The notes beneath the pieces are model-generated. The model saw nothing but the letters and a program-made list of their open reading frames with translations. It was not told the DNA's origin and ran no database searches. A stretch of 33,916 nucleotides of DNA, taken from NCBI GenBank assembly GCA_016936495.1, contig JAFGXT010000021.1, positions 1-33,916 of the forward strand, in the 5' to 3' direction. The position numbers were made by a program, and so were the translations under genes. Position 1 is the first letter of the stretch. Each line of letters begins with the position of its first letter. Shown one piece after another: positions 14,425 to 19,408 of the stretch. This DNA is from Victivallales bacterium. Lineage in GTDB: Bacteria; Verrucomicrobiota; Lentisphaeria; Victivallales; SZUA-371.

Positions 14425-14721
14425 ATGGAAATCACAGAAATAAATGAAAATGGTAAACTGATTCTTCAACTTGATGGCAGATTTGATGCGCTTGCCTCGC
14501 TGGAACTGGAAAAGAAGCTGGGTAAGAGTTTGAAGGGGATCAATGAGCTGGTTTTTGATTTCGCCAATGTAAAGGTGATAGCCAGCGCTGGATTGCGCGT
14601 ACTGGTTCAGACAAAAAAGCAGATGAGTGGTCAGGGAGCTATGAAAATCATAAATATCAATGATTCCGTACGCGAGATACTGACGATCACAAAGCTCATC
14701 AAATTGCTTGATGTGGAATGA
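14425..14721 (+). CDS. STAS-domain anti-sigma-factor antagonist
   Basis: This is a 98-residue SpoIIAA/RsbV-like protein made only of a STAS domain. Seen: GKLILQLDGRFDA, ELVFDFANVKVIASAGLRVL, where Ser54 is the site phosphorylated by the partner kinase, and KIININDSVREILTITKL. Such proteins free a client (usually a sigma factor) from its anti-factor when unphosphorylated. AAGGGG lies five bases before the ATG. The stop overlaps the next gene as ATGA. It is the first gene of a four-gene operon; the 191 bases upstream hold no convincing promoter that I could pick out. Confidence 0.92.
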   Translation: MEITEINENGKLILQLDGRFDALASLELEKKLGKSLKGINELVFDFANVKVIASAGLRVLVQTKKQMSGQGAMKIININDSVREILTITKLIKLLDVE

Positions 14722-16943
14722 AAAAAGCATTTCAAAAGTGGCTTTTTTTATTTGTACTGCTTGCGTTTATTCTGACTTTTACGGGCTCTTATATGGTTCA
14801 GACCGCGCTGGCTCATCGCGCGGCTGAAGTTCTGATCCGGGTCAAGCTCAAGGCTGCCTGTGCCCAGCTTGATAATGCCTGCAAGAATTATGAAGAAATC
14901 GCGGTGGTCATCCATGATAAAATTCTGCTCCGTGCAGATTATCTGGCATTGTGGCTGAAATATCAACCGGAAACCATTCACAATCAAAAAGAGCTTGGGC
15001 GCTTGTGCAATATATTAAAAGCTAGTCAGATGCGGATTTGTAATGCGGCAGGCGTCCAGATTGCGGCGGCCCCCAGGGATCTCCCTCCGGAAGTTGTTCC
15101 TGCGACTGTTGTTGCTTCCAGACCGCCTGTGCGTATTGTTATTCCCCACAAATTCAAAGCGGCTGACGGTAGTTATGATATTGAGCATGATGTTTATATT
15201 TCCCGTCTTGACGCGCCCGGTTTTATTTTTCTGAAGTACTATTCGCACAGCTTGAATATTGCTTACGATCATACTGATATAAAACTTTTTGCGGAGAGTT
15301 TCAGAATCGGAGCTGGAGGGGGGATCATCATCGCCAGAGGAGACGATATTTTATGTGACGGAACGTTGGATGTCAAAGAATTCAGGCTTTCGGAACTTGG
15401 GCTGCAAGATCAGACTCAGACCAGTTACAATAAGGTTGTTATTAATGAGACCCCCTATTTCGGAGTGAGCCTTAAGTATAAAGAGTACAATATCATTGGT
15501 TTGTTGCCGCTTTCAGAACTTTATGAACGCCGGAACCAGCTGTTGCTATTGCTAAGCGTCGGGTATATGATTCTCTTCAGCGTGGTATTCTGGGCGATCT
15601 CTGCTCTGGTTGAATACAAGGTAATCAAAGGCATTCAGGGAATATGTGCGTCATTAAACAGAATCACCTCCGGGGATCTCTATGCCAGAGCCGATGTGCA
15701 TTCCTCTCCTGAATTCATCCAGCTTTCCACTGGTATCAACAGTACCGTAAGTGCTCTCAGGGAAGCGATCAGCGAGGCGGGCAGACGTTATGAAAATGAA
15801 TTAAAGCTTGCCGCCGCTATTCAAGCCTCCGCCCTGCCGCGACCGGATTCGCTCAAACCGCGTCAAAATGAAGTCGAACTTTACGCGACGATGACCGCCG
15901 CACGGGAAGTAGGCGGAGATTTTTATGACTTTTTCTGGATCGACGACACTCATCTTGCGTTTCTTGTTGCCGATGTGTCGGAAAAGGGAATTCCTGCCGC
16001 GTTGTTTATGATGTCGGCCAAGACATGGATTAAAAGTCTGGCGAAGTCGCGTCTGGAACCGGCTGCCGTCTTTACGGAAGCCAACCGGATGTTGTGCTTT
16101 GATAACGATACCGGAATGTTCGTTACAGTATTTTTCGGTATCCTGGATTTAAGCTCCGGATTGCTTAGATGTATTAACGCCGGGCATAATCCGCCTCTGC
16201 TCAGGCGTGCGAACGGTAATTATGAATTCCTCCGTCTGGAACCAGATTTTATCCTGGGTACACTGCCGGACGTGGAATATCATCAGGAAACGCTAACCCT
16301 GAAGCACGGAGATCGCCTGTTCCTCTATACCGATGGCGTTACCGAGCAGATTAATTCCGGCGAAGAGGAATTCGGCAGTGAACGTCTGCTTACCAGTCTG
16401 GAACGTTTCGGCAAAGATATTCCGGAAGAGCTTGCCGGCCATATTTATGGACAATTAAAAGAATTTCAGGGCGATTCGCCGCAATATGACGATATCACCA
16501 TGCTGATTTTGGATTATCGCCCTGAACGGCTCACCCTTTCCGCCGAAGTGGAGGAATTGCCAAAGCTCCAGAATTATCTGGAACAGGTCTGCGCCCGGAA
16601 TCATCTTGGAGAGGATATTGAAAACCACCTTCAGATTATCGCGGAAGAAGTGTTTATCAATATCGTCAATTATGCGTATGAAGATAAAGAAGGCGGAGTT
16701 TCGGTTCTTTTCCGCTATGATCCTGAAATCCAATCGGCGCAGCTTGTCTTTACCGACTCGGGCATTCCCTACGATCCGCAAATGGTTTCCGCTCCTGATT
16801 TAAGCGAAGACTCAGGAGACCGTCAGCCCGGTGGACTGGGTATATTCCTGATCAAAGAGCTGGTGGATTCTATGGATTATCAACGTAAAGATGACAGAAA
16901 TATACTTGTACTGACAAAGACAACAGGAGGCACAAAATTATGA
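14718..16943 (+). CDS. Membrane RsbU/SpoIIE-type phosphatase fused to RsbW-type kinase
   Basis: This 741-residue protein carries both opposing activities of a partner-switching system. Membrane segments at about 7-28 and 274-298 enclose a 245-residue extracytoplasmic sensor. A HAMP-like region follows (about 300-355), then a PP2C phosphatase domain (about 365-600) with metal aspartates in REVGGDFYD, VADVSEKG, YTDGVTE and YDDIT. Residues about 605-735 form a GHKL ATPase domain: N-box AEEVFINIVNYAY, G1 DSGIPYDP, G2 GGLGIFL. The phosphatase should dephosphorylate the STAS protein encoded just upstream (4-base overlap), and the kinase-like domain should phosphorylate or sequester a partner. The stop overlaps the next gene as ATGA. 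Confidence 0.93.
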   Translation: MKKAFQKWLFLFVLLAFILTFTGSYMVQTALAHRAAEVLIRVKLKAACAQLDNACKNYEEIAVVIHDKILLRADYLALWLKYQPETIHNQKELGRLCNILKASQMRICNAAGVQIAAAPRDLPPEVVPATVVASRPPVRIVIPHKFKAADGSYDIEHDVYISRLDAPGFIFLKYYSHSLNIAYDHTDIKLFAESFRIGAGGGIIIARGDDILCDGTLDVKEFRLSELGLQDQTQTSYNKVVINETPYFGVSLKYKEYNIIGLLPLSELYERRNQLLLLLSVGYMILFSVVFWAISALVEYKVIKGIQGICASLNRITSGDLYARADVHSSPEFIQLSTGINSTVSALREAISEAGRRYENELKLAAAIQASALPRPDSLKPRQNEVELYATMTAAREVGGDFYDFFWIDDTHLAFLVADVSEKGIPAALFMMSAKTWIKSLAKSRLEPAAVFTEANRMLCFDNDTGMFVTVFFGILDLSSGLLRCINAGHNPPLLRRANGNYEFLRLEPDFILGTLPDVEYHQETLTLKHGDRLFLYTDGVTEQINSGEEEFGSERLLTSLERFGKDIPEELAGHIYGQLKEFQGDSPQYDDITMLILDYRPERLTLSAEVEELPKLQNYLEQVCARNHLGEDIENHLQIIAEEVFINIVNYAYEDKEGGVSVLFRYDPEIQSAQLVFTDSGIPYDPQMVSAPDLSEDSGDRQPGGLGIFLIKELVDSMDYQRKDDRNILVLTKTTGGTKL

Positions 16944-18520
16944 AAACCAAACAGATCAATGATCATCAGCTTCAATTCCTCAAGCGTTGCGGGTCTTTTC
17001 CCATCGCTTACTCCGCGGCCTATGGTAACCTGATGACGGCGTTTGAAGTCCCGGAAGGCTTTATCGCCGACGTGGAGATCGGCAATGAACGCATTGTACT
17101 CGGCGACCCTTTCTGCTCGCCAGAAGATTTACCGGTGGTTGTAGAGAAGTTTCTTACTGAAACGAAAAAAAACAAGCTGTCTCCTATCGTTCTTCAATGC
17201 AGCCATGACACCGCGCTTGCCTTTGTCAAGCATGGTTTCAACGCCAATCATATGGGGGTGGAAACCAATATAGACCTGAGTAAATTCAAAACCGAAGGCA
17301 GAAAGCTATCCAGAGTACGCCACTGGATTACAGCGGCGCAAAAAGCCGGTACCAGCGTAGTGGAGCTTTCCACTCAATCGCAGGAAACCATTGATCTGAT
17401 CGGCTCTATCTCAGAAACCTGGCTCAACGGGAAAGCCAATACTCAGGAACTGAATCTGCTAACCCGTCCACTGGTGCTTGATTATGAACCAGATACACGC
17501 TTATTCTGTGCCTGCACCGAAGGTCAGGTCGTCGCCTTTGTCTTGTTCGAACCGATGTATAAAGATGGTAAAATAATCGGGTACATGGCGGACTTTGTCC
17601 GCAGGCTGGATAATGCCCCCAAGGGATGTTTTGACCTTATTTATCAGGAAGCCGGACAGATATTCAAAGCTCAAGGCGCCACCACTTTGTCTTTCGGACT
17701 GTCGCCGCTTGCCGATATGGAAAACAATGAGAATATCCATAATCCGTTGATTACCACAATTTTTAACATGAATTACAATTATGGCAACGATATGTATGCC
17801 TATCAGGGACTCGACGCCCACAAAAAAGCTTATTACGATGGCGGAGAAACCGTAACCCGTGTTCCCAAATATCTGGTGATCGGAGGTTCATTCCCTATAA
17901 ATCAGGTTCTCTATGTATTCCGATTTATCGGGGTCATTCCCGATCAGAGCTATTTTGCTTCGATCAAACATTTTGCATCATGTATCATCAAAGGCTATTT
18001 CTCTCAACATAAAGTATCCAAAACAGCCGAAAAAGAAAAAATCACCGAAATCGCCAACGAAGTGGTCAAAGGTGTACCGTCGAATAAAATCGCCGGAGAT
18101 ACAAAATCCAGTGTTTCGCTTGTCGGAAAAATCGCCTCGGCCATCACCGACGGCTTTCGGGCAATGGCACCCCAGATCGAACAGCAGACATTGTTTTTTG
18201 CCGGACATTTTAACGAGGATACCGAAAAGATATATGTTAAGGTATCAAACATTGCCGACGGCGAAAAAGAAATCCATTTCGTCCATAATATCGTCTTTGT
18301 ACCATATAAAAGTGGCTACAACCTGATTATGACCGTTGAGGTCGACCCGGACATGACGGTAGCGAAAACCTATCAAATCGCGGAAAAATTGAAGGAAAAA
18401 ATCAGTAAACGTATCCCGGAAATACTTTACGCGCGTATTGAGTTCAAACCGGATGGCTCTTTTTTCAGCATGCTTGAAAGTCAGACAATCGATAATACCG
18501 CCGATGAGGATATTACCTGA
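16940..18520 (+). CDS. DUF2156 (MprF-like GNAT) protein with CDF-like C-terminal domain
   Basis: This is a 526-residue cytoplasmic protein. Residues about 15-320 match the DUF2156 or phosphatidylglycerol lysyltransferase-like acyltransferase fold: VLGDPFCSPEDLPVVVEKFL, a second-half IIGYMADFVRR, and TLSFGLSPLAD. Residues about 322-415 are a linker. Residues about 425-505 resemble the cytoplasmic dimerisation domain of cation diffusion facilitators, most clearly in LIMTVEVDPDMTVAKTYQIA and the following amphipathic helix, yet there is no transporter membrane part. I know of no standard protein with this pairing. The gene overlaps its upstream neighbour by 4 bases, so it is translated with the switch proteins and may be their output. 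Confidence 0.8.
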   Translation: MKTKQINDHQLQFLKRCGSFPIAYSAAYGNLMTAFEVPEGFIADVEIGNERIVLGDPFCSPEDLPVVVEKFLTETKKNKLSPIVLQCSHDTALAFVKHGFNANHMGVETNIDLSKFKTEGRKLSRVRHWITAAQKAGTSVVELSTQSQETIDLIGSISETWLNGKANTQELNLLTRPLVLDYEPDTRLFCACTEGQVVAFVLFEPMYKDGKIIGYMADFVRRLDNAPKGCFDLIYQEAGQIFKAQGATTLSFGLSPLADMENNENIHNPLITTIFNMNYNYGNDMYAYQGLDAHKKAYYDGGETVTRVPKYLVIGGSFPINQVLYVFRFIGVIPDQSYFASIKHFASCIIKGYFSQHKVSKTAEKEKITEIANEVVKGVPSNKIAGDTKSSVSLVGKIASAITDGFRAMAPQIEQQTLFFAGHFNEDTEKIYVKVSNIADGEKEIHFVHNIVFVPYKSGYNLIMTVEVDPDMTVAKTYQIAEKLKEKISKRIPEILYARIEFKPDGSFFSMLESQTIDNTADEDIT

Positions 18521-18523
18521 TTA

Positions 18524-19408
18524 ATGAATACCTCTTCGTCTTTAATTGCGTCGACCCCTTTAGGACAAGTGGCTTATCGCCTTGAAGGCGGGTCTGGTCC
18601 CTTGCTGGCTGGACTTCACGGCTCACCGGGGTCGGCGGAACAGATATTAATGGTTATGGACAAAATGGGACTTGATTCCTCATTGTGCCGGCGCCTCGCC
18701 ATTGATCGTGCCGGCTACAAAGACACCCCGCTCAAAAACTGCCGGAAGATGTCGGAGCAGGCGGATCTTTTTGCCGCACTGCTTGATGAACTTCATATCG
18801 AAGCGCTGGATGTACTAGTGGCTTTTTCCGGCGGGGGAATCATGGCGCTTGAGTTTGCCGTGCGTCATCCGCGGCGGGTCAAAAAACTGTTGCTGCTTTC
18901 TGCGGTTACTGGAGCTCATTCTCCATATCATCGCACCTGGTTTAACAGGATCATATTTACCGCTCCAGTTATGAACTTTCTGGTGACGATATCCTATCTG
19001 TTCCCTCAAATTGCGGTTAAACACATGATCGCCTTTATGAGTACGTTCAGTTCCCGCACGGTCAAACAGGAGTTTCGAAAGGTAAACGCATGCTCTTCCG
19101 ATCGGGATTTTATATTGAATCTCCTGCGGTTGAACAGTCCTTTCGGACGCCTATGCACGGGCTGGAAGAATGATACACATGAATTTCATCAAGCGAATAT
19201 CAACGATTACGCTGAACTTGATTTACCTGTGCTTCTGCTACATGGGCGCTATGATTCGGATGTCGATTTCTCTTATTCCGAGGATCTGTATAAATCTCTT
19301 GATTGCGCATCCCTGATCGAGGTCAAAGATGGATATCATCTGTTGATGGTCGGCGAACGTTTCAGAGATGTCCAGGAGCGGATATTTGAATTTTGCGGAA
19401 TAAGGTGA
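18524..19408 (+). CDS. Alpha/beta hydrolase
   Basis: This is a 294-residue alpha/beta-fold hydrolase, last gene of the STAS operon and 3 bases after the previous stop. Seen: oxyanion-hole HGSPGS (about 32-37), the nucleophile elbow VAFSGGGIMAL with Ser102 (Ala replaces the first Gly of GxSxG), Asp244 or Asp246 in LHGRYDSDVDF, and His272 in KDGYHLLM. Residues 140-180 form a hydrophobic cap that may bind lipid or membrane. There is no ribosome site of note, as expected for coupled translation. Possible substrates are lipids or peptidyl esters; the DUF2156 neighbour makes a lipid link plausible but unproven. Confidence 0.88.
   Translation: MNTSSSLIASTPLGQVAYRLEGGSGPLLAGLHGSPGSAEQILMVMDKMGLDSSLCRRLAIDRAGYKDTPLKNCRKMSEQADLFAALLDELHIEALDVLVAFSGGGIMALEFAVRHPRRVKKLLLLSAVTGAHSPYHRTWFNRIIFTAPVMNFLVTISYLFPQIAVKHMIAFMSTFSSRTVKQEFRKVNACSSDRDFILNLLRLNSPFGRLCTGWKNDTHEFHQANINDYAELDLPVLLLHGRYDSDVDFSYSEDLYKSLDCASLIEVKDGYHLLMVGERFRDVQERIFEFCGIR

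Follow-up and report, generated by a model that had tools for sequence, protein, structure and literature searches.

The open reading frame at 16940..18520 (+ strand) of a Victivallales contig raises the question of why an enzyme related to the lipid aminoacyltransferase MprF should end in what resembles the cytoplasmic domain of a metal transporter, and what that domain could do there. The frame, preceded by AGGAGG, lies in the 33,916-nucleotide stretch of DNA that was analysed as a whole (the window) and encodes a 526-aa fusion of an LPG_synthase_C domain, a helical linker and a ZT_dimer domain (Pfam). An earlier note on this DNA had proposed such a pairing, a DUF2156 domain with a tail of cation diffusion facilitator (CDF) type and no transporter, and we found both the pairing and the missing transporter to be real.

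Residues 35-298 (17042..17833, +) match PF09924 (LPG_synthase_C, formerly DUF2156) over the entire double-GNAT domain with 167.5 bits against a cut-off of 27.5 (E=4.5e-49). NCBIfam returns MprF for the fusion protein (8.3e-31) and weak CDF matches for the tail, and among PDB structures the N-terminal part comes closest to lysyl- and alanyl-phosphatidylglycerol synthases (4v36, a lysyl-PG synthase, at 1.4e-20). This catalytic domain of 250+ residues is common to the fusion protein and the MprF/LpiA aminoacyl-PG synthases (PF09924; PDB 4v36, 7duw), from which the former differs in lacking the N-terminal membrane flippase domain (LPG_synthase_TM), in bearing a C-terminal ZT_dimer domain and in being encoded in a STAS/SpoIIE operon. 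Inspection of the 526-aa sequence revealed no clear transmembrane helix, and Pfam gave no Cation_efflux match, so that the six-helix transmembrane domain that precedes the C-terminal domain in CDFs is absent. The sole PF03706 (LPG_synthase_TM) match in the genome is a stand-alone protein of 358 aa on a different contig; pgsA is present. Judged by its family, the fusion protein would be a soluble, aminoacyl-tRNA-dependent lipid aminoacyltransferase of the MprF catalytic-domain type, and its substrate could be a lipid other than the one assumed here.

The linker between the two domains (residues 362-428; 18023..18223, +; EIANEVVKGVPSNKIAGDTKSSVSLVGKI) is conserved, occurs in fused members only and has no match in Pfam. 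By eye it is faintly helix-turn-helix-like, and the segment right after it shows a weak alignment to the CDF region that precedes the cytoplasmic domain. A full-length AlphaFold model of the fusion protein was discarded (pLDDT 35.6).

Residues 430-494 scored 25.4 bits (E=1.5e-5) against PF16916 (ZT_dimer), 1.3 bits short of the curated cut-off of 26.7, and given a score just below the cut-off we examined the tail (residues 429-505; 18224..18454, +) by further methods. We searched the PDB with a profile made from five fused tails (those of four synthases and of one hydrolase, the known set) and containing no transporter sequence. The earlier note had allowed for assignment of the tail to another fold; 27 of the 28 matched chains were CDF cytoplasmic domains, led by 6vda (1.6e-6) and followed by 2zzt (1.9e-6) and, at 0.001, MamB. 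Across 388 genomes of the phylum and 137 of the order the same profile matched, beyond the fused proteins, mostly CDF transporters, recognised as such from their N-terminal sequence; the exceptions were isolated spurious frames and the C-terminus of phenylacetate-CoA ligases (PaaK), which matched weakly. Long open frames matching the profile (L098-L102) were considered as extra fusions and proved to be CDFs or a spurious frame.

In profile-profile comparison, where the pairwise E-values lack database calibration and only rank counts, the tail matched 14 CDFs at 97.8% over 78 columns, ahead of a PaaK control at 92.4% over 59 columns. An AlphaFold model of residues 340-526 was of modest quality (mean pLDDT 54.8, core 70-81), and almost all top Foldseek matches to it were CDF cytoplasmic domains (best E 2e-3). 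We therefore rejected another ferredoxin-like fold, the PaaK matches being weak, partial and behind the CDFs in every test. The tail is a genuine CDF cytoplasmic domain, alike in sequence profile and predicted fold to those of TM0876, MamB, MamM and YiiP (PF16916), from which it differs in having no transporter, in the replacement of conserved ligand histidines and in being joined to soluble enzymes. In the genomes searched here ZT_dimer otherwise occurs only on CDF proteins.

Among 137 genomes of the order, a survey of homologues found four with the fusion: that of the window, G322 (83% identity), G347 (78%) and G052 (37%), with identities among the fused proteins of 37-83%. Its recurrence in three further genomes argues against an assembly artefact. 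G322 was also the one relative recovered in a narrow scan of GTDB contigs with a single query sequence, where it appears as a Victivallaceae MAG; among plasmid records, none covered 80% of the fusion-protein query. In distant members from G200, G188, G191 and G255 the alignment stops at about residue 360 and there is no tail. G055, of the same family as G052, holds a 54-residue tail remnant (L094:8588-8752; G055:C40) with synthase, STAS and hydrolase all missing nearby, evidently a decayed copy.

Rarity, and a remnant indicating that the gene can be lost, are what might be expected if the tail were a tolerated leftover of a chance fusion with a CDF gene and had no specific role. We give this explanation little credence, given that the tail persists at 37% overall identity, that two tails occur within the G052 operon, and that constraint on the tail equals that on the catalytic domain. 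Between the window and G347, dN/dS is about 0.045 for the ZT part and 0.054 for the catalytic domain, rough values with dS near saturation, and by this measure the tail is under purifying selection similar to that on the enzyme itself.

The earlier note had further suggested that the tail might either dimerise the enzyme or respond to metal. CDF cytoplasmic domains bind metal and grow more compact (PMC6465983), and a metal sensor could work in the same way here, metal tightening a CDF-like dimer and thereby switching the synthase on or off. Site C of YiiP is formed by H232, H248, H261, H283 and D285 (PMC6465983). We located these columns by alignment with YiiP and compared them with 27 CDF domains of the same phylum, in which His occupies the H232 position in 19, the H248 position in 22, the H261 position in 23 and the H283 position in all 27, and the D285 position is E in 23. 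The window's fusion tail has H449, T465, Y478, E501 and K503, keeping one of the five. Across the five fused tails the residues are H/H/H/Y/D, T/T/T/T/S and Y/Y/Y/N/K at the H232, H248 and H261 positions, E in every case at H283, and K/K/E/A/L at D285.

A histidine at the H232 position in three of five tails would suit a metal sensor. The tails of G052, however, carry His at none of the five, and since H248, H261 and H283 are replaced in all five tails, the last by E where CDFs are invariant, a YiiP-like metal site is absent, though a metal site of some other kind may exist. Metal sensing was rejected on these grounds and strikes us as very improbable. The other half of the suggestion survives, on homology only: ZT_dimer forms dimer contacts in YiiP (PMC6465983), dimerisation of the enzyme stays the best reading of the tail, and a dimer that forms constitutively would be in keeping with the missing metal ligands.

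The fused gene was also thought to stand in a partner-switch operon, and the Pfam assignments of its neighbours agree. A STAS protein of 98 aa, putatively of the anti-sigma-antagonist type (14425..14721, +; PF01740 1.2e-12, TIGR00377 1.1e-13), carries a Ser in the phosphorylation-site motif VIASAGLRVL. It is followed by a membrane sensor (14718..16943, +) with hydrophobic segments near residues 9 and 276, a SpoIIE (PP2C) phosphatase domain at residues 409-600 (PF07228, 3.5e-51) and a HATPase_c_2 kinase domain at residues 608-734 (PF13581, 3.1e-23), in which the motifs GGDFYD, DGVTE and DDITML and the N-box EEVFINIVNYAYED are intact. Phosphorylatable Ser, kinase and phosphatase, the components of a STAS partner switch, are all present in the window. 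Overlaps of 4 bases join the sensor gene to the genes on either side, and 3 bases separate the synthase-ZT gene from an alpha/beta hydrolase gene. The order STAS, SpoIIE-HATPase, synthase-ZT, hydrolase is kept in the window, G347 and G052, and in G322 up to the contig end. The G052 sensor consists of HAMP and SpoIIE domains and no HATPase, which leaves the partner switch of that operon incomplete.

It is plausible, by analogy, that the fusion protein is the output or target of the switch. SiaABCD is likewise an operon of PP2C phosphatase, STAS-like protein and downstream enzyme, in which STAS-like SiaC binds and activates SiaD, the enzyme encoded with it (PMC8457831). The present operon differs in that its enzyme is a putative lipid aminoacyltransferase rather than a diguanylate cyclase, and in that kinase and phosphatase reside on a single protein.

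The hydrolase (294 aa; 18524..19408, +; PF12146 4.6e-11, PF00561 2.6e-9) has its catalytic motif, with nucleophile S102 in AFSGGG and His272, and no ZT tail. Its G052 counterpart, encoded after the synthase, has 416 aa, including a ZT_dimer domain of its own at 335-404 (26.1 bits); this second tail is new here. We scored it with a profile made from the four synthase tails only, which gave 40.1 bits for the G052 hydrolase tail and no more than 26.7 for the best of the CDF domains tested, and it has E, like the synthase tails, where CDFs have the invariant His. Given this score and the common E, the two G052 tails probably descend from each other or from one fused ancestor, and independent recruitment of each from a transporter is improbable. 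Homology (31-35%) links the hydrolases of the window's clade and of G052, so that the hydrolase either acquired a tail or shed one, and because the window-clade enzyme has none, pairing of synthase and hydrolase through tails cannot be general. The same tail on the neighbouring hydrolase of this one relative points to a docking module used a second time and not to a metal sensor.

Docking could instead be to STAS or another switch partner, the tail then not being a dimeriser of the enzyme at all. The STAS/SpoIIE pair does lie upstream of the fused gene wherever the locus is long enough, and the binding of SiaD by SiaC offers a model (PMC8457831), but pairing between tails is the simpler account of the second tail in G052, the one on the hydrolase, and we consider docking of this kind unlikely. 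A further point against it is that we know of no contact between a ZT_dimer and a STAS domain.

The reading that we prefer is dimerisation or assembly through the tail. MprF owes both the positioning and the dimerisation of its catalytic domain to the membrane domain, and on its own the catalytic domain shows no activity in vivo (PMC8131360), so that a soluble version needs a substitute dimeriser, for which a ZT tail is a natural choice, since dimerisation is its known job. The CDF-derived tail, deficient in its metal site, would thus act as a constitutive protein-protein dimerisation or assembly module standing in for MprF's dimerising membrane domain. In the window's clade the tails would form synthase homodimers; in G052, where both enzymes bear them, they could yield a synthase-hydrolase heterodimer in the cytosol.

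The adjacent hydrolase probably strips the aminoacyl group, making synthesis and removal a pair. In Agrobacterium tumefaciens the synthase LpiA and the hydrolase AcvB are encoded together and bind each other (PMC13197417), and LpiA-AcvB is likewise an aminoacyl-PG synthase gene next to an alpha/beta hydrolase gene. A direct AcvB-synthase complex was shown there. AcvB is periplasmic and of the VirJ type, whereas the window's hydrolase has no VirJ (PF06057) match in Pfam, giving Hydrolase_4/Abhydrolase_1 instead, and no strongly hydrophobic N-terminal segment or evident signal peptide; the G052 hydrolase differs from AcvB also in its ZT tail. As supporting context, four other genomes of the phylum have unfused soluble LPG_synthase_C genes that adjoin alpha/beta hydrolases.

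A synthase and a hydrolase sharing one compartment would need control, which would explain the partner switch; the STAS/SpoIIE-HATPase system probably sets the balance, via binding of STAS to the synthase assembly. For the model as a whole, a flippase-less aminoacyl-lipid synthase with a metal-free ZT dimerisation or assembly tail, an opposing hydrolase and partner-switch control, we put the chances at slightly better than even. The stronger version, in which the opposed enzymes are joined by paired metal-free CDF-type domains and their balance is set by a phosphorylation partner switch, we offer only tentatively and rather doubt.

With ZT_dimer transferred to two enzymes of a single operon and its metal site gone, nature has separated the dimerising role of the domain from the metal-sensing one. 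The locus would also offer an explanation, open to test, for the working of a soluble aminoacyl-lipid synthase that has no dimerising membrane part like MprF's, and is a candidate case of lipid aminoacylation controlled by a partner switch.

Several further arrangements were seen in the course of these searches. Unfused soluble synthases on rhizobial plasmids were rejected as relatives of this system, as they have no tail and the three loci inspected (L103, L104, L105) have no STAS, SpoIIE or hydrolase neighbours; in all three the LPG_synthase_C gene is divergent from an NAD(P)/FAD-dependent oxidoreductase gene. The unfused LPG_synthase_C genes of G200, G188, G191 and G255 (L035-L038; 370-379 aa) lie immediately downstream of alpha/beta hydrolase genes; they come from two families of the phylum, and three of the hydrolases belong to another subfamily than the window's. 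In G126 (L039:5783-7919) a VirJ-family hydrolase gene is followed by an LPG_synthase_C region apparently broken into several frames. Finally, CDF transporters of the same class carry a tandem pair of ZT_dimer-like domains (L077:787-1959, L085:1258-2412, L075:2-412).
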